Shown here one piece after another: positions 4,561-64,000 of a DNA stretch of 64,000 bases. The DNA is from Stomoxys calcitrans (lineage: Eukaryota > Arthropoda > Insecta > Diptera > Muscidae): assembly GCF_963082655.1 (NCBI RefSeq), contig NC_081552.1:189546075-189610074 (forward strand), read 5' to 3'. The notes below the pieces were generated by a model that made no database searches, was not told the DNA's origin, and saw nothing but the letters and a program-made list of their open reading frames with translations. Position 1 is the first letter of the stretch. Each line of letters begins with the position of its first letter. Made by a program: the position numbers and the translations under genes.

Positions 4561-4985
4561 ACATAAAAAAAAAACAAAAAAAGTTAAAAAAATAAAAGGA
4601 AAATGAAAACAAAAAAATAAAAGGAAAATGGAAATTAAAAAAAAAAAAATAAAAGGAAAATGAAAATGAAAAAAAAGCAATAAAAGGGAAATTAAAAAAA
4701 AAAATAAAATAAAAGGAAAATGAAAAAAATACATAAAAGGGAAATGAAAAACAAAAAAAAAAATAAAATAAAAGGAAAATGAAAATGAAAAAAAAAAATA
4801 AAAGGAAAGGAAAAAAACAAAAAAAAAAAAAAATAAAAAGAAAGGAAAAAACCAAAAAAAAAAAAAATAAAAGGAAAGGAAAAAAACAAAAAAAAAAACA
4901 AATAAAAAGAAAGGAAAAAAACAAAAAAAAAATAAAAGGAAAATTAAACAAAAGTTAAAAAATTTTACAAAATAAAAGAAAATTA
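4561..4985. repeat. A-rich low-complexity tandem tract
   Basis: Degenerate tandem repeats of AAAATAAAAGGAAAATGAAA-like units. It creates a long phenylalanine-rich open frame on the minus strand that should not be read as a gene. Confidence 0.9.
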
Positions 4986-5004
4986 AAATGAAACCAGTAA
5001 GTTA

Positions 5005-5625: not shown

Positions 5626-6070
5626 AAATTACAAAAAAATGGAAAAAACATGAAAAAAAAACTTAAAGAAAATAAAAAAAAAATAAATGAAAAATTGAAA
5701 AAATAACAAAAATAAATTAAAAACAAATACAAAAAAATGAAACAAAAAAAAAAATAAATAAAAAATTAAAAAATTAAAAAAAATAAAAAAGCAATGACAA
5801 ACCTAAATTCAAATAAGTACTATAAAAAATAAAAAAATAACAAGTAAAAAAAAAACAGTTCGGCTCTTCGTCTTCTTAGCGTTGCAAACAAATGCACAAG
5901 CTTATAATACCCTGTACCACAGTGGTGGTGTAGTATATAAACATTAAAAAAAAAAAATTAAAAAAAAAATTAAAAAGAATAAAAAATTGAAAAAAAATAA
6001 AAAATAAAAAAAAAATAAAAATTAAAAAAAAATAAAAATTAAAAAAAATAACAAATTAAAAAAAAAATAA
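5626..6070. repeat. A-rich tracts with a second E2 terminus
   Basis: Low-complexity A/T sequence (5626-5850 and 5943-6070) flanks a repeated E2 right end at about 5860-5942. That end repeats the 'CTTAGCGTTGCAAACAAAT' and 'ATAATACCCTGTACCACAGT' seen just upstream. Confidence 0.7.
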
Positions 6071-6980
6071 GTCAAGATCCCAGACAGATTTATATGGCAG
6101 CTATATCAGGTTATTAACCGATTTGAATCATGCTTGGCGCAGTTGTTGGATATCATAACAAAACACGTCGTGCAAAATTTCATTCTATTCGGATAAGAAT
6201 TGCGCACTCTAGAGGCTTAAGAAGTCAAGACCCAAGATCGGTTTATATGATAGCTATACCAGGTTATGGTCTGATTTGAATCATACTTAGCACAGTTGTT
6301 AGAAGTGATACTAAAACACTATGTGCAAAAATCGGATGAGAATTGCGCCCTCTAGAGGCTCAAGAAGTCAAGACTCAAGATCGGTTTATATGGCAGCTAT
6401 ATCATGTTATGGACCGATTTGAACCATACTTGGCACCGTTGTTGGATATCATAACAAAACACGTGGTGCAAAATTTCATTCTATTCGGATAAGAATTGCG
6501 CACTCTAGAGGCTCAAGAAGTCAAGACCCAAGATCGGTTTATATGACAGCTATACCAGGTTATGGACTGATTTGAACCATACTTAGCACAGTTGTTAGAA
6601 GTGATACTAAAACACTATGTGCAAAAATCGGATGAGAATTGCGCCCTCTAGAGGCTCAAGAAGTCAAGACCCAAAATCGGTTTATATGGCAGCTATATCA
6701 AAACATGGATCGATATGGTCCATTTACAATACCAACCAACCTACACTAATAAAAAGTATTTGTGCAAAATTTCAAGCGGCTAGCTTTACTCCTTCGGAAG
6801 TTAGCAGCTTTCGATAGACAGACGGACGGGCAGTTGGACGGACATGGCTAGATCGACATTAAATGTCGCGACGATCAAGAATATATATACTTTATGGGGT
6901 CTCAGACGAATATTTCGAGTAGTTACAAACAGAATGACGAAATTAGTATACCCCCCATCCTATGGTGGAGGGTATAAAAA
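6071..6980 (-). mobile_element. DINE-like element with tandem internal monomers
   Basis: Several ~165-bp monomers (ATCGGTTTATATG.CAGCTATA ... TTGCGCCCTCTAGAGGCTCA) lead into the conserved end block: AGACGGACGGGCAG, GACATGGCTAGATCGAC, 'AATATATATACTTTATGGGG', GAATGACGAAATTAGTATAC and the terminal 'CCTATGGTGGAGGGTATAAA'. Confidence 0.8.
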
Positions 6981-6984
6981 TTAA

Positions 6985-8095
6985 CAAGTAAAAGGCATTA
7001 AGTTTTCCCATGGTGGAAGTCGTAACAGAACACCGCATGCAAAATTTCCGCTAAATCGGATGAAAATTGCGACTTGTAAGGACTCAAGAAGTCAAACCGG
7101 GAGATCGGTTTATATGGGAGCTATATCAGGTTATATATCGATTTGGATCGTACTATGCAGAGTTGTTGGAAAGTCTAAACACTAAATGCTCAGTTTCAAT
7201 CAAATTGGACACAAATTGCGGCTTGTAAGGCCTAAAGAAATCAAATCGGGAGATCGGTTTATATGGGAGCTATATCAGGTTATAGACCGATTCGGACAGT
7301 ACTTTGCACAATTGTTGGAAGTCGTAAGAGAACACTACATTCAGTCAAATCGGACGAAAATTGCGGCTTGTAAGGGCTCAAGAAGTCAAATTGGGAAATC
7401 GGTTTATATGGGAGCTGATATAGCTCCATTCAGACAGTACTTTGCACAATTGTTAGAAGTCGTAAGAGAATACTACATGCAAAATTTTAGTCAAATAGGA
7501 CGAAAAAGCCCAATTTTCGTCCTATTTGACTTAAATTTTGCATTGTAGGGGCTTAAGAAATCAAATCGGGAGAACGGTTTATATGAGAGCTATATCAGGC
7601 TATTGACCGATTTGGACCGTACTTTGCACAATTGTTGCAAGTGATAACAGAACACCGCATGCCCAATTTCAATCAAATCGGACAAATATTGGAGCTTGTA
7701 AAGGCGCAAGAAATCAAATCGGGAGATCGGTTTATATGGGAGCTATATTAGGTCATTCACGGATTCGGACCGTATTTGGAACAGTTGTTGGAAGTCGTAA
7801 CAGATTACCCCACGCAAAATTTGAGCCAAATCAGACAAATATTGGGGCTTGTAAAGATTCGAGAAGTCAAATCGGGAGATGGGTTTATATGGGAGCTATA
7901 TTAGGTTATACACGGATTCGGACCGTATTTGGAACAGTTGTTGGAAGTCCAACAGAACACTACATGCATTCGACCGCTATTGTGGTTTCGACAGACGAAC
8001 GGACATGGCTAGATCGACTCAGAACGTCGAGACGATCGAGAATAGCGGAATGACTAGACTAGTATACCCCCATCCTATAGTGGCGCGTATAATAA
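6985..8095 (-). mobile_element. DINE-like element, tandem array variant
   Basis: About six monomers of ~160 bp with 'GGGAGATCGGTTTATATGGG', differing from the preceding element by 'TTGCGGCTTGTAAGG' in place of the GCGCCCTCTAGAGG form. The end block (ACAGACGAACGGACATGGCT ... 'ATACCCCCATCCTATAGTGG') is at 7985-8085. Open frames in it merely read through the repeat. Confidence 0.75.
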
Positions 8096-19419: not shown

Positions 19420-20415
19420 ATTATACCCTCCACCATAGGGGGGTATACTAATTTGTCATTTTGTTTGTAACTCCTCGAAAAAAATCCTCTGAGACACCAG
19501 TAAGTATATATATTCTTGATCGTCATGACACTTTAAGTCGATCTAGCCATGTCCGTCCATCCGTTGATCTGTCGAAAGCACGCTAACTTTCGAAGGAGTA
19601 AGACTGGACGCTCCTTCATATAAGTGTAGTGTTTTAGTTATGATTGTAAATGAGCCATATCGGTCCATGTTTTGATATAGCTGCCATATAAAACGATCTT
19701 GGGTCTTGACTTCTTGAGCCACTAGTGGGCGCATTTCTTATCCGATTTGGCTGAAAATTTGCATGACGTGTTTTGTTATGACTGCTAACAACTGTGCTAA
19801 GTGTGGTTGAAATCGTTCCATAACCCAATATAGCTGTCATATAAACCTATCTGGGGTCTTGACTTATTGAGCCTATAGAGGGCGTAATTATTATCCGATT
19901 TGGCTGAAAATTTGCATGACGTGTTTTGTTATGACTGCTAACAACTGTGCCAAATATGCTTAAAATCGGCGTATAACCTGATATAACTGTTATATAAACC
20001 GATCTGGGATCTTGGCTTCTTGAGCCTCCTTATTATTTGATTTGGCTAAAACTTTGAACCACGTCTTCTCCCATTGCCTTCAACATACATGTCAAATATG
20101 GTCTGAATCGGTCTATATCCTGATACAGCTACCACATAAATCGATATTCCTATTTTACTTCTTTAGCTCCTAAAGGATTCAATTCTTACTCCAATTGGCT
20201 GAATTTTAACACAATTCAGCTTTAGTTTTCAATTCAATTATGGTCCGAATCAGACCACAACTTGATGAAGCTCCAATAGCTTACCAATTATTTTTTGTTA
20301 TCCTTTGTTTGCTTAAAAAGAAATACCGGGAAAAGAAATCGACAAATGCGATTCATGGTAGAGGGTATATAAGATTCAGCTCGGCCCAACTTAGCACGCT
20401 TTCACTTGTTACTAC
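19420..20415 (+). mobile_element. DINE-like element with both termini
   Basis: It begins 'TTATACCCTCCACCATAGGG', then the conserved core (TTCTTGATCGTCATGACA, GATCTAGCCATGTCCGTCC), then about four monomers, ending with GGTAGAGGGTATATAAGATTC, CTCGGCCCAACTTAGCACG and 'TTTCACTTGTTA'. At about 1 kb it is one of the best-delimited copies. Confidence 0.75.
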
Positions 20416-22591: not shown

Positions 22592-23385
22592 CTATACAGT
22601 CGATATCGCTCGTCTTTTGCCTTTCTTTATTGGTTTATTCTTGCGATCGATATTTATACTATACATAGCTTTTACGATTGGTGTTGTAATATTCAAAGTG
22701 TCGCAGGTGTTGCCAACAATGTGAAACAAATCTCCACTCTCATAAGGTATGCCGTTTATTCGTAGATCACATTCAATTTGTAGATTATCGAATTTTTGTT
22801 GACTGGTTTTTATTTGCTTCATTTCGGCTTTAAAATTTTCGATCTCATCAAGCATTTGATTAATTTTGCTCACGACTGTCTCAACAAGCTCGACCCCCTA
22901 TGTCAGATTTGTTAATTTTGAATCTATTTGACTTACGTCTCCTTTGATGTCGTTCATACTGTTATCGACCGTAGGCTAAGAGACGCGATTCGTACTGACC
23001 AATGAGAGACTTGATCAATTCCGTTTGTTTCTCAAACCTCTTATCTATAAGCTGTAGCACGCGGTAGGGGGATTAATTTGAGAGCCTCTGTGTTTGGTTT
23101 ATGCTCTTCTCCAGAGCATATAACCTCTCTCACACGTTTTGGTGCCCTCAACAACATTTCTGCAGGAGTTGTGTCGGTGTGGGTGGACGATGAGAGAGTT
23201 GAAACTGGCATCTCAGACATAATGAGCACAGATTCTTTATTTTGTTTTTGTATATTGAGATTTAGTAATGCACTTTGCATTCCCAGACTTGGAAGTTTAT
23301 TTTGGGGGCTTTCCATGTAGTTATGGGTGAAATGTGAATTTTTAATGAATTTTGTAGCAGCACCACTTAACAACGTTATTAGCAA
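22592..23385 (-). mobile_element. LINE ORF1-like remnant, coiled coil plus RRM-like
   Basis: The minus strand contains EMPVSTLSSSTHTDTTPAEM (about 23150-23220), a charged, coiled-coil-like stretch (KINQMLDEIENFKAEMKQ) and CDLRINGIPYESGDLFHIVG followed by NTCDTLNI. The last resembles the RNA-binding fold in ORF1 proteins of many insect LINEs. The frame is broken between the parts. A second copy is at 25640-26140. Confidence 0.6.
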
Positions 23386-23389
23386 TTTA

Positions 23390-24395
23390 TAAATGTTATG
23401 TTAAGTTAATGTATGTTAAATGTATTTCGCGGCATCAAATTACATTGTTATAAACTGTTATACAAAAACGTAAATAACATCGAGAGAGGCATATCTCACT
23501 CCATGTTTAAGCTCTCTATCTCACAAATACAGTGATATGTAACTACATTCGTGTAAGAATGCTCTCAACATCCAAATGATCATCGTTCTGTCGGAACTCT
23601 TTTAACTCACCTGTTTAAATGCATGTTCTGTTCTTACTTATAAGTTTTGATGTTAGACACGTGATGCATTTTTGTAATAGGTAGTGAAATACGAAGATGG
23701 ATTAATATTAAGACTCTTGAAAAGCCTATTTAAATGAGAACAACGTTTGTAAAATTGTCATTCCTTCGCCAACTCTTTTTTTAATATAGACAAAGAGGAA
23801 ATTTGCACTGTGTATCATTTTTGGAAGGCACTGATAAAAAAAACAACTATTCCCTATAAATAAAATAAATTGAGTATACAGCCATAAGCAGACCTGGTGT
23901 CTATTGTGGCATATACCAATCGAAGAACTGTACTGGCGAGCTGCCTTGCAAGTTCTCGAATAAAAATAAAAAAATTATTATAAAAAAATAAAACAAAATT
24001 CAAAAAATCTTTAAGGTGATTTGCCCTCACCTTACAATTTTACTTTAGTAAAAAAGTTGAAGATTTTTTTTTTTTTTAACAAATTTCCTTATATTTAAAA
24101 TTTCGAGAGTGTTAAAAATACGATGGAATTTCTTTGTCTTAAGAAATTTTATTGAATTTTTCTTCAATTGATGTTTTTGTTTTGAAATTTCATTACATTT
24201 TAATGTCGATGGAATTTCTTTCTCTGAATATTATAATACGATAGAAATTTCTAATAAAAATCAAATGCTTATAAGAGGTCCTTTTCTCATATTTATCTCA
24301 TTTGTCACCTAGAACTCTGACGTTTTATAAATTGCCAATAGCTTATTCTTGCTATGGAAATATTTTGTTTACCTAAGTCAATTAACGCCTATTCA
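23390..24395. other. Repeat-poor non-coding DNA
   Basis: AT-rich sequence without recognised repeats or exons. It leads into the candidate recursive splice site. Confidence 0.5.
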
Positions 24396-24423
24396 TTTCT
24401 TTTTTTTTCATTTTAGGTAAGTG
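24379..24423 (+). promoter_or_regulatory. Candidate recursive splice site (ratchet point) 1
   Basis: A pyrimidine-rich tract (ATTCATTTCTTTTTTTTTCA, then TTTTAG) ends at AG 24415-24416 and is followed directly by GTAAGTG (24417-24423), a strong 5' splice site. A possible branch point, TTAAC, lies about 30 nt upstream. Juxtaposed 3' and 5' splice sites define a zero-length exon, known from long Drosophila introns, where the spliceosome removes an intron in steps. The -3 base is T (TTTTAG), slightly weaker than the usual CAG. The position lies outside any repeat. Confidence 0.6.
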
Positions 24424-24463
24424 TGACAACTGCATTCTCCAAATGTCCTTGCCTGTGATGATG
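24417..24463 (+). other. Possible RS-exon of ratchet point 1
   Basis: If the regenerated GTAAGTG is not used, the next good donor is ATG|GTAAGA at 24464, giving a 47-nt exon. Dual donors of this kind accompany recursive splice sites in animals. This is inference from splice motifs only. Confidence 0.35.
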
Positions 24464-24479
24464 GTAAGAAAAATCACAA

Positions 24480-25380
24480 AAAGTTCAGCTTTTTCTTAGT
24501 TATGCTGCAGAAAATTGGCAAATGAATTTTGTCCATCAGTTTGATGGGAAATCTTTTAATACGATAAATGTTGCCATAACTTAGTCATTCATAACTTGTT
24601 TTAAGTTTTTGACAAATAACCTTTGGCACTTAGGTTAGTAAATATTAAAGTTTGTTAGTAGAAAGAATAGAAAAGAAAATTAAATGAAATGAAATTCCTT
24701 GGCAAATATTTGGGTGTCTAGAGTTGCTTGTGCTTCACAGATATGAAATGCATGGAAAATTTCCAAATCCCATTAAGTGATTCATTCACAATGTGCTGTC
24801 AAGTCATTTTATGTCCATTCGAGTGAAGATTCTTTGCCCTTTTTGATGCCTGGGAAGAGTGAAGGGAACGAGTCTAATGTTGGTTATTTTGTTGGAAGAC
24901 AATATACAACATTTAGGACAAAATTGTAATAAAATCCGAACATCGACCTGATAGACATAAGCCAACAAAATCAAAATAAGGGTTGGTTTTATATTTCATT
25001 TGTCTCGTACTTGTGCCCTGATGGAGGGCCAAAATAACCACTGGAGGTGGGAGACTAGACAAACACATTGACATTGCCAGGATTAAGAAACGAATTCGAT
25101 ATGATGTTGTGGCTGTGCATAGATTATACACTGTCGAAATTTTTATACATAATTTCCAAGAAATTATGATGCTAGGGATTAAGGACTTTTGACTGTGTTA
25201 TAATTTTGGAAGAAATTTTCTTTAAAGGCTAATCCATTTTAAGGAAAATTGTTTTTGAAGCACCAAAAGGGATAAAAATTATTAAGCGTTTGAATTGAAA
25301 GAAATCATACTCTATATGCATCGATCGTAGAGGACTCTGAACGTTATCGATGAGTAGAGAGTGCAAGCTGGGGGTTAGAT
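24480..25380. other. Repeat-poor non-coding DNA
   Basis: No recognised transposon. Possibly conserved intronic sequence around the ratchet point. No exon seen. Confidence 0.45.
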
Positions 25381-25638
25381 TTCTGTTTTGCCATGTCCCA
25401 TTCCCAAAGTCAGAAAAAGGTTAGAACGAGGAGGCTAAGAGTGGTGCTGATTTATCTGTACCTCTCTGTGGCCGCCTCGAACGAACTGCTTCTAGCACCC
25501 TCTAACTTTTCCGTCGACATTGCCATGATTAAGGAACCTTATGTTGTTAGCAATAGTGCCTCTGGGCTAGGCAATAATAACTACACAGTCGTGGCAGTGA
25601 AATCAACAATTTGCAACAAATCCTCTTTAGTCTCGTAG
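25381..25638 (+). mobile_element. LINE endonuclease N-terminal fragment
   Basis: The frame 25393-25638 reads LRVVLIYLYLSVAASNELLL, then SVDIAMIKEPYVVSNS. The 'A.IQEPYV' block is the first catalytic motif of APE-type LINE endonucleases (Glu of EP retained). It stops after ~80 residues and abuts an ORF1-like fragment in the opposite orientation. Confidence 0.65.
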
Positions 25639-25639
25639 G

Positions 25640-26140
25640 GTATTCCATTTATTCATTGATCACATGTAACTTGTAGATTTTCGGCTTTCAAATGTTCGAT
25701 CTCGTCATGCATTTGATTAATTTTGCTCGCGACTGTCTTAACAAGCTCGACCCTCCTCTCAGTCAGATTTGTCAATTTTGAATCTATTTGACTTTTGTCT
25801 CTTTTGAGGTCGTTCGTACTCTTATCGAACGTAACTAAGAGACACGACTCACACTAACCCATGAGAGCCTTAATCAATTTAGTTTGTTTCTCAAACCTCT
25901 TATCTATAAGCTGCAGCATGCGGTAGGGGGAATCGTAATTTGAGAGCCTTGGTGTTTGGTTTATGCTCTCTTCTCCAGAGCATAACACCTTTCTCACACA
26001 TTATGGCGCCCTCACACATTTCTGCAGGAGTTGTGTCGGTGTGGGTAGACGATGAGAGAGTTGAAACTGTCATCTCATCGTAATGACATAATGAGCACAG
26101 ATATTTTAACAAGCAAAAATTTTGACAAATGCAATGCACC
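25640..26140 (-). mobile_element. LINE ORF1-like remnant, second copy
   Basis: Minus strand: MTVSTLSSSTHTDTTPAEM, HKPNTKALKL and the coiled-coil region resemble 22740-23240 closely, with small indels. The 5' region differs after about 26095. Confidence 0.6.
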
Positions 26141-29829: not shown

Positions 29830-31235
29830 TATACTAATTTCGTCATTCAACTTGTAACACTTCGACATATGCGTCTAAGACCCCTTAAAGTATATATATT
29901 CTTGATTGTTATGACATTTTAATGCCATGTCCGTCCGTCCGTCTATCGAAAAACGCTAACTTTCGATGGAGTAAAGCTAGGCGCTTGAAATTTCGCACAA
30001 GTACTTCTTATTAGTGTAGGTCGGTTGGGATTGTAAATGGGCCAAATTGGTCCATGTTTTGATATAGCTGCCATATAAACCGGTCTTGGGTCTTGACGTC
30101 ATGAGCTTCTAGAGGGCGCAATTATTATTCGATTTAGCTGAAATTTTACATAAGGTGTTTTGGAACCACCTTCAATAACTGTGCCAAGTATGGTTCAAAT
30201 CGGTTTATAATCTGATATAGCTGCCATTTAAACCGATCTCCCGATTAAATTTATTGAACTTCTAGACGGTGCAATTCTTATCCGATTTGACTGAAATTTT
30301 GCACATATGGGTGGGAAATGACTTCCAACAACTGTGCCAAGTATGGTCTAAATCAGTTCATAACCTGATATAGCTGCCATGTAAACCGATCTTAGATCTG
30401 GACTTCTTGAGCCTCTAGAGGGCGCAATTATTATCCGATTTTACATGAGGTTTTTTGGTACTACTTTCAATAACTGTGCCAAGTATGGTCTAAATCGGTT
30501 CATAACCTGATATAGCTGACATATTAACCGATCTCCCGATTAGACTTATTGAGCTTCTAGAGGGCGAAATTCATATGCGATTTGGCTGAAAATTTGCACG
30601 TGGGGTTTTGGTATGACTTGCAACAAATGTGCCAATTTGGTTGAAATTTTGGATTGTCGTTTTGGTATGGCTTCCAACAATTATGGTCTAAATCGGTTGA
30701 TAACCTGATATAGCCTGAATTTCCCGGAAATTTTGAAGATGGTATTTTTCTTTGACTTCTAACAGCCGTGACAAGTACGGTCTATATGGGGCAATAAGTT
30801 GATGTGGCAAATGCAAATTTTGTTGCCCATGAACATTCCACTAAGGAATAGGGGCAAACTTCTCACATATCAATGAGTGCAGTCCGATTCAAGTTTAAGC
30901 TCAATGATATGGGGCCTCCTTTTTATAGCAGAGTCCGAACGGCGTGCGGCAGTGCGACACCTCTTTGGAGAGAAGTTTTTCATGGTAGTACCTCATAGTA
31001 CCTCACAAATGTTGTTAGCATTAAGAGGGGAAAACCACCGCTGAAATTTTTTTTCGGATGGTTTCGCCAGGATTTGAACTCAGGCGTTCAGCGTCACAGG
31101 TGGACATGTTAACCTCTGCGCTACGGTGGCCTCCTTGGCTTATACATATATTGAAAGAGTCATTCAAAGAACTTGACAAATGCGTTCAATGGTGGAGGGT
31201 AAATAAGATTCGGCCCGGCCGAACTTAGCACGCTC
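29830..31235 (+). mobile_element. DINE-like element with nested S1 SINE
   Basis: Start block 'ACTAATTTCGTCATTCAACT', core 'TAAAGTATATATATTCTTGA', several TAACTGTGCCAAGTATGGT monomers, then a SINE (30820-31135), then the end with GGTGGAGGGTAAATAAGATTC and the hairpin TTCGGCCCGGCCGAA (about 31211-31225) and CTTAGCACGCTC. The SINE must be younger than the element. Confidence 0.8.
30820..31135 (-). mobile_element. S1 SINE, full-length reference copy
   Basis: The most complete copy. Read on the minus strand it starts GGAGGCCACCGTAGCGCAGA, giving the A box TAGCGCAGAGG, then CGCCTGAGTTCAAATCCTGG (B box), then the full body to ATGGGCAACAAAATTTGC. It lies inside the DINE-like element. Confidence 0.85.
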
Positions 31236-31860: not shown

Positions 31861-32510
31861 ACAATACCAAAAGCTTAGACAATGGAAAACTTTCGGCAGG
31901 GCCGAATCTTGGGAACCCACCACCATGGATTTTGTTAAAAATTTGTACAAAATAAATTTATTCTACATACCGAACTTCTGCCAAACCATCAAAAATTAAA
32001 GCTTCTACTAACCGAACAAGGATCGGTTTATATGGGAGCTATATTAGGTTATAGACCGATTTGGACCGTACTTGGCACCATTGCTGGAAGTCAAAACAGA
32101 AAAATTTCAGCCAAATCGGACAAGAATTGCGGCTTTCAGTGGCTCAAGAAGTCAAATCGGAAGATCGGTTTATATGGTAGCTATATCAGGTTATAGACCG
32201 ATTTGGACCGTACTTGCCAGATTTGTTGGAAGTCGTAACAGAACACCACATACAAGATTTCAGCCAAATCGGAGAAAAATTGTGGCTTGTGAAAGCTGAA
32301 GAAGTCAAATCGGGAGATCGGTTTTATGGGAGTTATATCACGTTATAGACCGATTTGTACCGTACTTGACATAGTTTTTGAAAGTCATAAGAGAACACCA
32401 AGTACAAGTCATACAAGTCATAAGCCTTAGAGTGCTTACCACAGACAGTCAGACGAACGGACGGACATGGCTAGATCGATTAAAAATGTCATTACGATCT
32501 GAAATATATA

Positions 32511-43559: not shown

Positions 43560-45170
43560 GAACTTTAGAGTGTTACTTCTTTAAAAATATGGCAAACATT
43601 TGAAGTTAGAAAATATAAATCACTTGGATCACTTATTTAGAGAAATTTCGAAAAACTTTCTCAAAGTGTTATACTGTTATAAACATCTCGTTTTCTGATT
43701 TACATGTGAAATTTTAGGTAAGTTATTTTGTTTTTAGACAAATAGACACAAGGCAACTGATTTGAAAGGGAATTTTCGTAAAATCAAAGCCATTGTATAA
43801 CAGTTAGTTTTTATTGTGCAACACTTAATTTTGAATTTATGATACTTATTTTTGAATTTATGACACTTAATTTTGAATTCATGACATTTAATTTTGAATT
43901 CATGACACTTAATTTTTAGTTGCCAACACTTAATTTGCGTTTTATAACACTCAATTTTTATTTTATGACACTTATTTTTAATTTTATAACAAATCTTTTA
44001 TTTTATAACACTTAGTTTAGAATGTCAATTCTTTAAAAATATGGTAAACATTTGAAGGTAGAACCGATGGATCACTTGGATCACTCATTTATAGAAATTT
44101 CAATAAACTTTCTCAAAGTGTTATAATGTTATAAACATCCTGTTTTCTGATTTACATGTGAAATTTTAGGTAAATTATTTTGTTTTTAGATAAGTAGACA
44201 CAAGGCAACTGATTTGAAAGTGAATTTTCTTAAAATCAAAGCTTATGTATAACAGTTAAATTTTATTTGGCAACACTTAATTTTGATTTTATGATACTTA
44301 TTTTTTATTTTATGACGCTTAGTTTTTGTTTACAACACTTAATTTTCATTTTATAACACTTTAGATTTTTATAACACTGAATATTTATTTTATGACATTT
44401 ATTTTTAATTTTATAATACTTATCTTTTATTTTATAACACTTTAGAGTGTCACTTCTTTAAAAATATGGCAAACATTTGAAGGTGGCACACATAAATTAC
44501 ATGGATCACTTATTTACGGAAATTTCAATTAACCTTCTCAAGTGTTATACTGTTATAAAAATCTTGTTTTCTGATTTACATGTACAATTTTGGGTGAATT
44601 ATTTTGTTTTTAGACAAATAGACACAAGGCAACTGATAAGTGAAAATCAAAACTTATGTATAACAGTTAGATTTTATTTTACAACACTTAATTTTTAGTT
44701 TACAATACCTCATTTTCTTTTTATAACACTTAGTATTTATTTTATGACACTTATTTTGAATTTTATAACACGTATCTTTTATTTTGTAACACTTTCTTCG
44801 TATTTCGTAAAATGTAATATTTACTTTTTAACACAATTTTCTACTTTATTATAACACTTAATTTTAATATTATGACACTTAATTTTAATTTATCATACTT
44901 AATTTTTATATTAAAACACTTTATGTTTATTTTATAATACATAATCTTTAGTTTATGACACTTAATTTTTGTATTATAACACTTTATTTTTATATGATAG
45001 TACTTGATTTTTATTTTACGACACTTAATTTATGTTTATTTATAACACCTAAATTTTATATTATAACATTTGATTTTTATTGTATAACAGTTAATTTTTT
45101 AATTGATAGCACTTTATTTTTATATTATAACACTTAGGTTTAATATTATAACACTTGATCTTTATGTTAG
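43560..45170. repeat. AT-rich minisatellite with higher-order organisation
   Basis: The short unit resembles TTTTATTTTATAACACTTAA (~20-25 bp). From 43573 a longer unit with 'TTAAAAATATGG.AAACATTT', GATTTACATGTGAAATTTTAGG and ACACAAGGCAACTGAT occurs three times (anchors 43581, 44033 and 44458; periods 452 and 425 bp), each followed by short units. From 44700 to 45170 only short units remain. Confidence 0.85.
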
Positions 45171-45174
45171 AATA

Positions 45175-45430
45175 CAAATTTGTCCATGAGCGTTGCATTA
45201 AGAAGCAAGGGCAAACTTTTCACATATTAATGAGTGCTGTCCGGCTCGAGTTGTAAGCTCAATGATAAGGGGCCTCCTTTTTATAGGCAAGTCAGAAGGC
45301 GTGCCGCAGTGCGTCACCTCTTTGGGAAGAAGTTTTTACATAGCTGCCATATCATTGTACAAATGGCAGTGGTTATCGCCACCTAACGCTGGCGACACTG
45401 CTGGCAATGGTTTCTAATGTTCACGCCAGA
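45175..45430 (-). mobile_element. S1 SINE inserted in the minisatellite
   Basis: 'CAAATTTGTCCATGAGCGTT' to AACGCTGGCGACACTGC with the usual CGTGCCGCAGTGCG. Minisatellite units resume at 45440. Confidence 0.75.
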
Positions 45431-45520
45431 AACACAGAAATGCTTAAAAACAGTTGATTTTTATTTTATAACAGTTAATTTTTATCTTTAAGCACTTAGC
45501 ATTCATTTTATAACACAGAA
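45431..45520. repeat. Minisatellite remainder right of the SINE
   Basis: 'GATTTTTATTTTATAACAGT' and TTTATAACACAG continue the array. Confidence 0.75.
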
Positions 45521-50892: not shown

Positions 50893-52655
50893 CGGGTTAT
50901 ATGACAGCTATATCAAGTTATGGACCGATATGAACCATATTTGGAACAGTTGTTGAAAGTCAAGCTAAATCAGATAGGATTTGCACCCTCTAGAGGCTCA
51001 GGAAATCAAGATCCCAGATCGGTTTATATGGCACCTATATCAGGTTATACACCGTTTTCAACCATACTTAGCACAGTGGTTGGAACTCATAACAAAACGC
51101 GTCATGCAAAAATTTCAGCTAAATCGGATAGGAATTACGCCCTCCAGAGGCTCAAGAATCAAGACCCCAGATTGGTGTACATGACAGCTATATCAAGTTA
51201 TGGACCGATTTGGACCGTATTCGGTACAGTTGTTTAAGGTCATAACGAAACAAGTCGTGCAAAATTTCATCGAATAGGACCCAAGGTGGGTTTGTATGAC
51301 AGCTATGGCAGTTTATATACAGATTTTAACCATTCTTAGCACAGGGGTTGAAACTCATAGTAAAACACCTCTTGCATAATTTCAGTTTAATCAGATAGGA
51401 ATTGCGCCCTCTATTGGCTCAAGAAGTCAAGACCCAAGGTCTGTTTGTATGACAGCTATGTCAGGTTATAAACCAATTTCAACCATAACAAAACATGTCA
51501 ACCCAAATTTCAGCCAAATCAGATGGGAATTGCGTCAAAATTCAAGATAGGTTTATATGGCAGCTATATCAGGTTATAGACCGATTTCAACCATACTAAG
51601 CACAGGGGTTGGAACTCATAATAAAGCACCTCTTACAAAATTTCAGCCAATTCGGATAAACTGAAGAAGTCAAGACCCCAGATCGGTTTATATGACAGCT
51701 ATATCAGGTTATGAACCGATTTGAACCATATTTGTCACAGTTGTTGAAAGTCATACAAAAATGTTATGCCCTCTAGAGGCTCAAAAAGTCAAGACCCCTG
51801 ATCGGTTTATATGGCAGCTATATCAAGTTGTGAACCGATTTGAACCATATTCGACACAGTTGTTGAAAGTCATAATGAAATACCTCATGGAAAATTTCAG
51901 CCAAATCGTATAGGAATTGCGCCCTCTAGAGGCTCAAGAAGTCAAGACCTCAGATCGGTTTAAATGACAGCTAGATCAAGTTATGGTCCAATTTGAACCA
52001 TATTTGACACAGTTGTTTAAAGTCGTAGCGAAACACGTCAGGCAAAATTTCAAACAAATCATAAAGGAATTGCGCCCTCTAGAGGCTCAAGGAGTCAAGA
52101 CCTTAGATCGGTTTATATGACAGCTATATCAAGTTGTTTTGAAGCATATTTAGCACACCTCATGCAAAATTTCAGCCAAATCGAATAGGAATTGCGCCCT
52201 CTAGAGGCTCAAGAAATCAAGACCCCAGATAGGTTTATATGACAGCTATATTAAGTTATGAACACGTCAGGCAAAATTTCAGTCAAATCGGATAGGAATT
52301 GCGCCCTCTAGGACCCCAGGTCGGTTTATATGACAACTATATCTAGTTATGGACCAGTTTAACCATATTTGACACAGTTGTTGGAAATCATAACAAAACA
52401 CCTCATGCTAAATTTCAAGTTCAGAAGTCAAGATCCGCGTAAGGTTTATATGGCGGCTATATCAAAACATGGAACGCTATGGCCCATTTACAATCCTTCG
52501 ATAGTTAGCGTGCTTTCGACAGACAGACGAACGGACATGGCTAGATCGACTTGGAATGTGTTTACGATCAAGATTATATATATATACATTATGGGGTCTT
52601 GGGAGCATATTTCAAGGTGTTACAAACGGAATGAAGAAATTAGTAAACCACCCCT
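50893..52655 (-). mobile_element. DINE-like element with ~10 tandem monomers
   Basis: Units of ~150-170 bp with ATGACAGCTATATCAAGTTA, 'ATTGCGCCCTCTAGAGGCTC' and AAGTCAAGACCCCAGATCGG run to 52480, with partly deleted units. The end block has ACAGACAGACGAACGGACAT, GGCTAGATCGAC, 'ATATATATATACATTATGGG' and GAATGAAGAAATTAG. Open frames are repeat read-through. Confidence 0.85.
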
Positions 52656-58359: not shown

Positions 58360-58600
58360 TATTCTCTATACATTCTTCCATCGCCATAAGTCTCATAGCC
58401 GTAGTGGCTTCCTCACACTTAATTTGTATGTCGGATGTTTTGTATAGTCACCAATGCTCTAGAGAGAGTGGTCCTCATCGTTCCAAGGACAACATGTTCT
58501 CTGCACCTTTTGTATTATCCTTACGCTGCACTCTACCAAACTAGTGAGTCCGTAAGTAACCATAGGTTCAATCACGCTCCTGTTGAAAACATGACATCTT
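58360..58600 (-). mobile_element. LINE family B RT thumb fragment
   Basis: 'CATAAGTCTCATAGCCGTAG' TGGCTTCCTCACAC and ACTAGTGAGTCCGTAAGTAA match 21070-21260 on the same strand. The same LINE probably continued into 57392-57770 before later insertions. Confidence 0.6.
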
Positions 58601-58639
58601 CCGCACCTGGAAAGTTATCCACTTTCAAAACTAATGCGT

Positions 58640-58740
58640 AAATACTTTTTAGTGATTTAGATGGGTGGGATTTGTAAATTGGCCAAATCGGCCCAAGTTT
58701 AAATATAGTTGCTCCCATTTAGAATCACAATTATTATTCA
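58640..58740 (+). repeat. DINE-like fragment
   Basis: 'TTAGATGGGTGGGATTTGTA' AATTGGCCAAATCGGCCC and AGTTGCTCCCATTTAG. A degraded monomer only. Confidence 0.45.
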
Positions 58741-58744
58741 ATTT

Positions 58745-60260
58745 GATTTAATCATCCCTTTTAGTATAATTAAACAAAATCCAGTTAAGTTGTAGTCATT
58801 AAAACAAGAAACTGTAAACATTTCGAAATTTAATTATTTATTTCCAAAAAGTTCAATCTGTCTTTGGTTGCATTAAAAAAACTTGGAAATATTTTTGTAT
58901 AAGTATGTGCAGCACACACACACACACACACACACACTATTACTGTAAGTTTCATCAAAGCAAAACATATTAATTTCGAGTGCATACATGCGGTTGTTGT
59001 TAAGTATCATAGAATGTTGCATACTTTGAGGGATACCGAAAAAAGTTACTCAACTACGCATGCTGTTCTGGTTTCCAATTTCTTTCCCTCCCCTTTCAAC
59101 TGTATCTAACTGTCTGTCTGGTGTTAGTTAATAAAATTTCACCCAATCCCTATTTGCTGGGGTGTGTAGGAGTATGCACCATCTTTCTCCCTATGTTCCT
59201 TACATCTTGGCAACATTTGCTAGATATCAAAGGCACATTGAATGTAAAAACACCAACTACTGCTTGTAGAATCAGAAGCAGCAACAACGGCAACAGCAGC
59301 AGGGATGCAAAAGGAAAACATTGTTGTGCCCGGGTTTTGGATTTGCTGTTCATATTGTGCTGGTCACGAAAACCAAATATTTGCATTTGAACTTTACGAC
59401 CAAAAAGGCAAAACTAAACCTCTACACAATAACAACTACAACAACAAGGAACATATCGAATAAGAAAAACAAAGCAGTACACATTTTATATTTGTTAAGA
59501 ACTTTTGTAAACGATTATGGCAGTAGAAGAGTACAAAAATAAGAAGAAGAGCAAGGAAAACCAACTTTTTGTTTTTTTTTTTTTTGAGTGATATGGCAAC
59601 GCAAAGTTTGGAAATAGTACCACAAAATCGAAAGCAACTAAAATCTAATTAAAAGCTGCAACTTTTAATGCTTTCCATTTCTTTTTTTCTACAACATTAT
59701 TTTGAAAAATAAATTACTGCATGCTTACAATGTGAATAAATAGAGAATTGTTTTACTACTCCTAATGAAACAAGTAAATCAGAAAAGTTTAGATTTTTGT
59801 TTTATTAAAAAATATATGTGGCTTTAATTAGTAGTTCAAAATTGTTTTTCAAACGAATTCAAATTGGTTATTTTTCATGTTAAGCCCTTAGTAATCGGTT
59901 AACGCTGTTAATTAGCAGTTTCAGTTATTGACAGAAATATGTATGCTTTACTTTTGGTAAGGCGCCCTAAAGTATGCAACATTAATACCATTTAAACAAA
60001 TTCATTATTAAACCCCATATATAGATTTTTAAGTGCTTTAGCATTATTCTCCACTTTTAAGATTTGTCATTTAGTTATTCACGATTACTTTGAAGCCTCT
60101 ATGCTGATGATGATGTTATGGTTATTTTGTTGATTGGTTTTTGTTTGGCTGCATGGCATTTGATTTCTGAGTTTTCTTAATATTCAACATGGCTGATGGT
60201 CATCATTATAGATGTGCATAATAATTTGTATTATATATAATTGCTTTTGAAATAACATTT
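58745..60260. other. Repeat-poor island with (CA)n
   Basis: (CA)n at about 58913-58937 and CAG/CAA-rich sequence at about 59275-59300. No recognised transposon. Part of the flank of ratchet point 2. Confidence 0.5.
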
Positions 60261-60264
60261 AATA

Positions 60265-60303
60265 ATTCTAATTGGTTTTTTTTTCTCTCATTGCAGGTAA
60301 GTG
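60265..60303 (+). promoter_or_regulatory. Candidate recursive splice site (ratchet point) 2
   Basis: A textbook arrangement: branch-point-like TTCTAATT (about 60266-60273), pyrimidine tract TTTTTTTTTCTCTCATTG, CAG ending at 60296, then GTAAGTG at 60297-60303. The combined 3'/5' site YnCAG|GTAAGT is the known consensus of zero-nucleotide exons in long Drosophila introns. It lies in a repeat-poor island and on the same strand as the site at 24416. Confidence 0.7.
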
Positions 60304-60371
60304 CCACTTCAAATGTTGGAAACACAAAAAAAAAAATAAAGGAATAATGTATGTACCAGTAATTGGAAAAG
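60297..60371 (+). other. Possible RS-exon of ratchet point 2
   Basis: A second strong donor, AAAAG|GTAAGG, lies at 60372, so skipping of the regenerated site would define a 75-nt exon. It contains in-frame stops, so its inclusion would likely break a reading frame. Inference only. Confidence 0.4.
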
Positions 60372-60505
60372 GTAAGGTACGTTATTAGCAAAATATAGTT
60401 TAAAAAATGTTTGACAGACTAGCCGGCCGAAGACTGGTCAGCAGGGGCTTTTGACAAAGACACCTGGTTGGAGTCTTAAGGACAAGGCCGAACCTATTCT
60501 ATTTT

Positions 60506-61699: not shown

Positions 61700-62820
61700 G
61701 ACAGTTTTCGATAAGGGAGAAGAACAGGACTGTATACCTAGGAATAGTAGGAGTGGGATAGTCAATGGATTGTCATCAGTATACTCCGATGTTCTTACGG
61801 AAATTCCTGGGTCTCCTCCAGTTTGTGACGAGGCAGGGTGGTATCGGGGTCTATACAGACTTCAATGCCTTCGGGGATCAACAATCAATTGAAATGTATC
61901 ATTGTGCGCTAAAAAACATTGGTGAGATCTGGCCAGTTGCAGCACTACATTTAGTCAAGAAGGAAGATATTCCTTGTCGATCAATGGCGCATGCTTGGAT
62001 ACCAAGGATTCCCTCTGATCCTGAATCCATACTTGGAAGACTAAGGGAATGTACTAGGATTGACGGGAACCTAGTATTGTCATCTGGCAAATCGTGTTAC
62101 ACGGATGGATCAAAGCTAGAGGACAGAGTGGACCTGGGGGCTTACATTGAAAACCCAGAGACTGAAATCTATTTTAGTCCGCCTGATCATAATACGGTAG
62201 AGATCCGGGCGATCACGGAATGCGTGAGGTGTTGTGCTGTTAACGCGAGGTTGTCGAGTGTAAACATCTCCACGGACAGTAAAATTGCCATAAGGGCAAT
62301 AACAATCAGGACGGTAAGGTCACAAACAGTCTTGCAGTGTAAGAAGGAGATTAACGCCTTTTCTGAGGATGGCAAAATCCGCATCGTTTGGGTGACGGGC
62401 CATAACGAAGTAAGGGGAATGAAAGGGCAGACGATTTGGCACTAAAGGCCAGAGGACTGTCTTCAATAAACTTGGTTAAGCCGAAGCCTTTCGGGTCGAC
62501 GCAGTCCGAGTTAAAGGTGAGGGCGGTGAATGTGCTTGCAGCCCTGTGAAACAGTCGAAAGGACGGCGAAAATCCTATGGGGAGATCCAGATCGTGAGAA
62601 GATGAGGCCATTACTAAAAGGAATTAAGAAGGAGATCAGTATAGCTATTGGTATCATAGCGGGATTCGTAGGACTACGAGCTCACTTATGTTGAATCGGT
62701 GCCGTAAGTGATAGCATGTGTAGGGCAAGCGGGGAAGATAATGAGACGTTGAAGCATTTCCTTTGTCATTGCCCGGCTTTCGCATCTAAAAAATCGGATA
62801 ATAAATGTGGCTTTATGGGC
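61700..62820 (+). mobile_element. LINE family B RNase H and C-terminus (decayed)
   Basis: The frame 61765-62445 (226 residues) has YTDGSKLEDRV (Asp at residue 114), VEIRAITECV (Glu 146), NISTDSKIAI (Asp 171) and IRIVWVTGHNEV, where VPGH has become VTGH. A frameshift at about 62420 precedes the remains of 'ADDLALKARG'. Further on, CRASGEDNETLKHFLCHCPA (about 62719-62777) gives the C..HC-type Cys/His motif at the end of such ORF2 proteins, in another frame. All three first catalytic acids remain, so this is the best preserved RNase H in the window, but it is not functional as a LINE. Confidence 0.8.
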
Positions 62821-62829
62821 CTGAGACCC

Positions 62830-64000
62830 TAAATCGGTGAATCGGTCTTTATAGGGGCTATATCAAGAAATAGTCCGATATAGCCTATCTTCGAACATAA
62901 CCTGCTAATGGACAAAAAAGGAATCTGTGCAAAGTTTCAGCTCAAAACCTCTATTTTTAAAGATACAGACGGACGACATGGCTGTATTAACCTGATCGCT
63001 GGATCAGGTTATAGACCGATTTGGACCATACTTGGCACATTTGTTGAAAGTCATAGCAAAACACCACATGCTCACTTTCAGCCAAATCGGACAAATATTG
63101 CGGCTTGTAAAGGCTCAAGAAGTCAGATCGAAAAATCGGTTTGTATGGCAGCTACATCAGGTTATAGACCGATTTGAACGCTATTTGGCACAGTTGTGGC
63201 AAGTCATGACAGAGCACTATGTTCAAAATTTCAGCCAAATCGGACAAAAAATGCGACTTGTAAGGGCTCAAGAAGTCAAATCGAGAGATCGTTTTGTATG
63301 GCAGCTATATCAGGTTATAGACCGATTTGAACGCTACTTGGCACAATTGTTGGAAGTCACAACGGAACACTATCTTCAAAATTTCAGCCAAATTGGATGA
63401 AAATTGGGGCTTCCAGGGGCTCAAGAAGTCAAATCGGGAGATCGGTTTATATGGGAGCTATATCAGGTTCATGACCGATTTGGACCATACCTGGAACAGC
63501 TATTGGAAGTTATAACAGAACACTATGTGCAAAATTTATGCAAAATCGAACACAAATTGCGGCTTCCAGGGGCTCAAGAAGTCAAATCGGGAGATCGGTT
63601 TATATGGGAGCTATATCAGGTTATACACGGATTTGGACCGTATTTGGAACAGTTGTTGAAAGTCGTAACAGAATACCCCACACAACATTTCAGCCAAATC
63701 AGATGAAAATTGAGGCTTCCAGGGGCTCAAGAAGTCAAATCGGGAGATCGGTTTATATGGGAGCTATATCCAAATCTGAACCGATATGGTCCATTTGCAA
63801 TCCCCAACGACCTACATCAATATAAAGTATCTGTGCAAAATTTTTAAGCGGCTAGCTTTACGCGTTCAACCGCTATCGTGATTTCGACAGACGGACGGAC
63901 GGACATGGCTAGATCGAATCAGAATGTCGAGACGATCCATGATATATATATATTTACTTTATGGGGTCCCAGATCATTATTGCAAGTTGTTACAAACGAA
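62830..64000 (-). mobile_element. DINE-like element with tandem monomers, cut by window end
   Basis: About six monomers ('ATCGGGAGATCGGTTTATAT' GGGAGC, ACAGTTGTTGGAAGTC-like, TTGCGGCTTCCAGGGGCTCA) lead to the end block GACAGACGGACGGACGGACA, TGGCTAGATCGAATC and 'ATATATATATTTACTTTATG'. The terminus lies beyond 64000. Long open frames across it are repeat read-through. Confidence 0.85.

Follow-up and report, generated by a model that had tools for sequence, protein, structure and literature searches.

The junction at 60296|60297 on the + strand of a 64,000-nt stretch of Stomoxys calcitrans DNA (C1:189546075–189610074, called the window below; the 1.07 Gb assembly is repeat-rich) is, judging from its sequence features, very probably a functional Drosophila-type intronic ratchet point within a very long + strand intron. 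Drosophila, which has a small genome, is where ratchet points have been studied most thoroughly. We directly observed the anatomy of the motif and its rarity under chance, a ladder of six sites all on the + strand, donors of cryptic recursive-splicing exons (RS-exons) downstream of these sites, and the genome-wide enrichment of a stricter form of the motif. Together with the strength of the motif and a repeat-free island around it, these observations lend support to the recursive-splice interpretation that a sequence-only reading of this DNA had offered.

Anatomy and score of the junction

The following features were located at and immediately downstream of the junction.

60268–60272, + strand: branch-point-like CTAAT found by a YTRAY scan of the sequence, the A at 60271 being the putative branch nucleotide, 26 nt upstream of 60297
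60276–60296, + strand: polypyrimidine tract and acceptor ATTGCAG|, with 14 pyrimidines at 60276–60289; acceptor score, 9.2 bits
60297–60302, + strand: donor |GTAAGT that the ratchet point is predicted to regenerate; 9.0 bits including the preceding CAG
60297–60371, + strand: predicted cryptic RS-exon of 75 nt; with GTACGT at 60377 as its donor, the length would be 80 nt
60372–60377, + strand: RS-exon donor AAG|GTAAGG; 6.5 bits, compared with 9.0 for the ratchet-point donor

An acceptor and a donor are thus juxtaposed around a central AG|GT, and a cryptic exon with its own, weaker donor lies tens of nucleotides downstream. The uninterrupted pyrimidines (60276–60289, n = 14) are followed by ATTG, by CAG at 60294–60296 and by GTAAGTG from 60297, and the sequence-only reading had described the CTAAT, the long pyrimidine tract, the CAG and the GTAAGTG exactly as they stand. 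It had also called the junction a merged 3'/5' splice site near the ratchet-point consensus. The junction scores 14.5 bits, and no other AGGT on either strand of the 264 kb analyzed (the window and 200 kb downstream) scores higher. The interval that it delimited ends at 60371, the final base before the donor GTAAGG, and includes the 75-nt cryptic exon, which it did not mention.

The acceptor and donor weight matrices used for these scores, the 10-bit cut-off and the island length cut-off used below were our own choice. We compared the score with two null models of the same sequence context, and it exceeded what either produced by chance: in 60 simulations from a fourth-order Markov model, the best scores averaged 8.2 bits and reached at most 13.7, none attaining 14.5, and in block-wise dinucleotide shuffles (n = 100) the maximum was 12.3 bits. 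Acceptors of at least 9 bits occurred once on the + strand and once on the – strand of the 264 kb. A loose IUPAC scan of the window that allowed up to two mismatches gave no enrichment (16 matches found vs 26.8 expected), so that it is how strong this site is, and not the core motif alone, that carries the ratchet-point claim; of the 16 matches, 60296|60297 alone had fewer than two mismatches. A further candidate at 43711–43723 (ATTTTAGGTAAGT) was rejected, having a weak tract and a score of 3.2 bits.

Same-strand ladder and repeat-free islands

Six sites in the 264 kb scored at least 10 bits, all of them on the + strand and none on the – strand, whereas the shuffles yielded a mean of 0.16 such sites for both strands. 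That all six lie on the + strand is expected of an intron transcribed from that strand. Their junctions, obtained by AGGT scoring, are given in window coordinates.

24416|24417, + strand: the window's second predicted ratchet point, with the sequence TTTCTTTTTTTTTCATTTTAG|GTAAGTG; 12.5 bits
60296|60297, + strand: the junction described above
118884, + strand: ladder site beyond the window (L007:4884)
152533, + strand: ladder site beyond the window (L010:8533)
205237, + strand: ladder site beyond the window (L016:1237)
242831, + strand: ladder site beyond the window (L019:8831)

The ladder covers 218 kb, with gaps of 35.9, 58.6, 33.6, 52.7 and 37.6 kb (mean 43.7). These gaps were more even than under a Poisson model (P = 0.005), a result from a small sample that depends on the score cut-off. 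GTAAGT or GTAAGC starts at the first base of all six sites; the site at 152533 is weaker, with the donor GTAAGC and an RS-exon donor of only 1.0 bit. The seventh-ranking site, at 146368 (8.7 bits), was dropped: it lies within a repeat and has a poor donor, GTACGG, and its best downstream donor scores 1.1 bits. On the same strand, further sites with the strict pattern defined below, each with an RS-exon donor, were found at C1:190252087 and 190278679. The sequence-only reading had taken 60296|60297 for the region's main functional element, which is overstated, because 24416|24417 also lies in the window and four more sites follow within 183 kb downstream; the ladder, the downstream RS-exon donors and the genome-wide enrichment of the motif had escaped it.

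We further analyzed the repeat content around the sites by blastn self-comparison.

58587–60500: island around 60296|60297
23240–25678: island around the 24416 site

The first island had no match (at least 60 nt, E 1e-8) elsewhere across approximately 354 kb of sampled genome; the repeat-poor island proposed earlier is therefore real, and somewhat larger than the 1.5 kb claimed for it. When the 264 kb was compared with itself and with 30 other loci, a sample so small that low-copy repeats are invisible in it, repeats covered 64% of its length, and the uncovered islands of at least 1.2 kb, a length cut set after inspection, numbered 23 and totalled 39.5 kb (15% of the 264 kb). Five of the six ladder sites, all except 118884, fell within these islands (binomial P of approximately 4e-4 by our own arithmetic). 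Such a placement would fit selection against insertions, without proving it. Decoy splice sites were not scarcer on the + strand of the 264 kb, either for donors of at least 5 bits (48 on + vs 46 on –) or for acceptors of at least 6 bits (56 on + vs 36 on –); this lack of depletion counts against a simple selection picture.

Splice-site and codon scoring detected no convincing coding exon in the 264 kb, which is consistent with one giant intron but is not proof of it, and it is in this sense that we infer an intron. We also searched for exon-like pairs (acceptor of at least 5 bits and donor of at least 4 bits, 25–120 nt apart) and found 10 acceptors on the + strand and two on the – strand, five of the 10 being ladder sites. 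One + strand pair, L020:9503–9559 (acceptor 5.0 bits, donor 6.4 bits, 57 nt), has no donor at its start and may represent a small exon belonging to the same gene as the ladder. AATAAA occurred 281 times on the + strand and 307 times on the – strand of the 264 kb.

As for the other sequence in the window, a Pfam search with 10 of the 31 listed open reading frames produced a single hit, to an RNase H domain, in the frame at 61762–62445. This frame starts 1.5 kb downstream of 60296|60297 and is probably a mobile-element remnant; a protein search with it yielded no relative at E 0.001 among 159 candidates. Neither an Rfam nor a tRNA scan found anything in the window. A tandem repeat with a 153-bp period (CGGTTTATATGGCAGCTATATCAGGTTATAGACC...) occurs at 6023–7969, 32024–32402, 50893–52494 and 62921–63843 and, inverted, at 19618–20248 and 29988–30635, and is thus present in both orientations across the window. 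A diverged array with a 21-bp period and ACACTTAATTTTTATTTTATA-like units occupies 43767–45519, and a long A-rich low-complexity stretch with a strong AT skew lies at 4563–4997.

Cryptic RS-exons and the genome-wide class

A donor of at least 6.5 bits lying 25–90 nt downstream, as at 60296|60297, was found for 0.4% of random positions (n = 3,000). The 24416 site has the same arrangement.

24417–24463, + strand: predicted cryptic RS-exon of the 24416 site, 47 nt, with the donor ATG|GTAAGA at 24464

For the six ladder sites in order, the distance to the GTRAG donor was 47, 75, 32, 53, 61 and 40 nt. We extended this comparison to 38 sites, comprising the six local sites, all 30 loci of a genome-wide scan and two later loci (146368 was excluded); a smaller set for downstream donors comprised 21 of the 30 loci (read on the + strand) and seven local sites including 146368. 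Among the 38 sites, 34 had GTRAG 25–90 nt downstream, compared with 10 of 148 shifted control placements (individually 2/36, 4/38, 1/38 and 3/36), and YTRAY was present within –50 to –18 at 29 sites, compared with 13/38 and 8/38 in two controls. The four sites lacking an RS-exon donor were L022, L030, L041 and L042. RS-exon lengths ranged from 32 to 75 nt (n = 34), the 75-nt exon at 60297–60371 being the longest, and 13 of the 34 were multiples of three, which indicates no frame preference. The ratchet-point donor was stronger than the RS-exon donor in all 34 cases, 28 of which had been preselected for a perfect GTAAGT.

The strict pattern searched for genome-wide consisted of nine pyrimidines, NN and YAG|GTAAGT. 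It occurred at 279 places, compared with 56 for the reversed pattern, a control in which the base content is kept and the base order differs; none of the six ladder sites, 60296|60297 included, matches it. In the 100 places listed first out of the 279, adjacent pairs 10–100 kb apart comprised 19 on the same strand and 0 on opposite strands, where random placement predicts approximately 2.8 of either kind, and pairs up to 300 kb apart comprised 28 on the same strand vs two on opposite strands. This count omits two neighbor pairs less than 10 kb apart (L045/L046 is one) and includes L041/L042, 25 kb apart, among the 19. The same-strand excess among neighbors indicates that ratchet-like sites generally cluster by strand in this genome.

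Near-identical sequences were noted in two strict-pattern pairs, L041/L042 and L045/L046, the latter 1.6 kb apart, which suggests local duplications or repeat copies bearing ratchet-like motifs. Since L041 and L042 lack an RS-exon donor, they may be repeat copies and not ratchet points; all four loci were retained among the 38 sites.

Alternative explanations and comparison with Drosophila

Three other explanations were weighed against a ratchet point. A chance match within AT-rich intergenic DNA would account for the host exon not being found in 264 kb and for the unenriched loose scan; we consider it the least probable of the three and highly unlikely, because the null simulations never attain 14.5 bits and because the same-strand ladder, the RS-exon donors and the repeat-free islands would all be left to coincidence. 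A cassette exon, whether ordinary or poison, that starts with GTAAGT by chance and undergoes no re-splicing would look much the same at a lone locus where a donor follows the acceptor after 75 nt. This, too, is very improbable, given that GTAAGT or GTAAGC stands at the first base in 6/6 ladder sites and that the anatomy of acceptor, GTAAGT and RS-exon donor is repeated genome-wide.

An expressed recursive exon, in which the 75 nt of 60297–60371 would sometimes be retained in mRNA as are the Ubx microexons, is unlikely, if less so than the other two. The length is a multiple of three, phase 2 is open across the entire exon and no longer exon was found among the 34 measured; however, the coding score is negative (–3.4, for the 80-nt version), the ratchet-point donor exceeds the RS-exon donor (9.0 vs 6.5 bits), and RS-exon lengths here show no preference for multiples of three. 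The Ubx microexons m1 and m2, of 51 nt, are described as expressed RS-exons (PMC8605326). The predicted exon resembles them in having a donor directly after the acceptor and in being short and open in one phase, and differs from them in bearing no sign of coding selection.

If 60296|60297 is a ratchet point, the spliceosome would first recognize the cryptic exon 60297–60371 by way of its acceptor and of GTAAGG, the donor at its downstream end. Next, the upstream exon, which would already have ratcheted to 24416 if that step came earlier, would be joined to 60297, and the joining would regenerate a donor (exon end|GTAAGT) able to outcompete the weaker RS-exon donor. The cryptic exon would thereby be removed with the next segment, which would end at the next site 58.6 kb farther on. 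Transcription, use of the junction, the order of these steps and one intron common to the six sites are what we infer under this model.

Intronic ratchet points, or zero-nucleotide recursive splice sites, have been described in Drosophila (Hatton 1998, Burnette 2005 and Duff 2015, as given in citing papers; Pai 2018, PMC6110457). The sites reported here are similar in that 3' and 5' splice sites are juxtaposed at AG|GT, several occur per presumed very long intron, and they are strand-specific. According to Shepard 2009 (PMC2773006), fruit-fly introns longer than 50 kb contain 2.196 sites per 100 kb vs 0.101 on the complement; our density of approximately 2.3 per 100 kb vs 0 on the opposite strand, obtained with our own scoring in a region chosen because it contains 60296|60297, fits this value. 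Drosophila ratchet points are described by Joseph 2021 (PMC8605326) as acceptor ends of cryptic exons of approximately 50 nt, whose own donor generally loses to the ratchet-point donor, and the predicted exons here, of 32–75 nt with predicted donors weaker than those of the ratchet points, resemble these. In contrast, the typical segment in Drosophila S2 cells, where the sites were found by RNA, is 9–15 kb (Pai 2018, PMC6110457), whereas the segments here, known from sequence alone, measure 33.6–58.6 kb (mean 43.7); weaker sites were possibly missed, in which case the true segments would be shorter.

Among the matches listed from the titles and abstracts of a partial literature collection, none concerned ratchet points in such flies, which is no claim of absence in print; in the same collection, recursive splicing with intron expansion matched only an unrelated paper, and Musca domestica with recursive splicing only a review of another gene family. 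Seven high-confidence ratchet points are the maximum reported for a Drosophila intron. The phenomenon is known in kind, and the more interesting part is the same-strand ladder, with its long segments and with most of its sites in repeat-free islands. It is conceivable, though we hold it doubtful, that the ladder belongs to one intron of approximately 700 kb or more, which would take in the + strand sites at C1:190252087 and 190278679, with more than seven ratchet points, in which segments grew several-fold as transposons expanded the genome and the sites were kept in repeat-free islands. If this were true, the Drosophila segment size of 9–15 kb would not be a limit of the splicing machinery. 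The ratchet anatomy, including the cryptic RS-exon, can be seen in the bare sequence of a repeat-rich 1.07 Gb genome, and such a genome would serve as a natural experiment on whether recursive splicing caps segment length or merely needs periodic landing sites, and also of whether selection keeps transposons off ratchet points.
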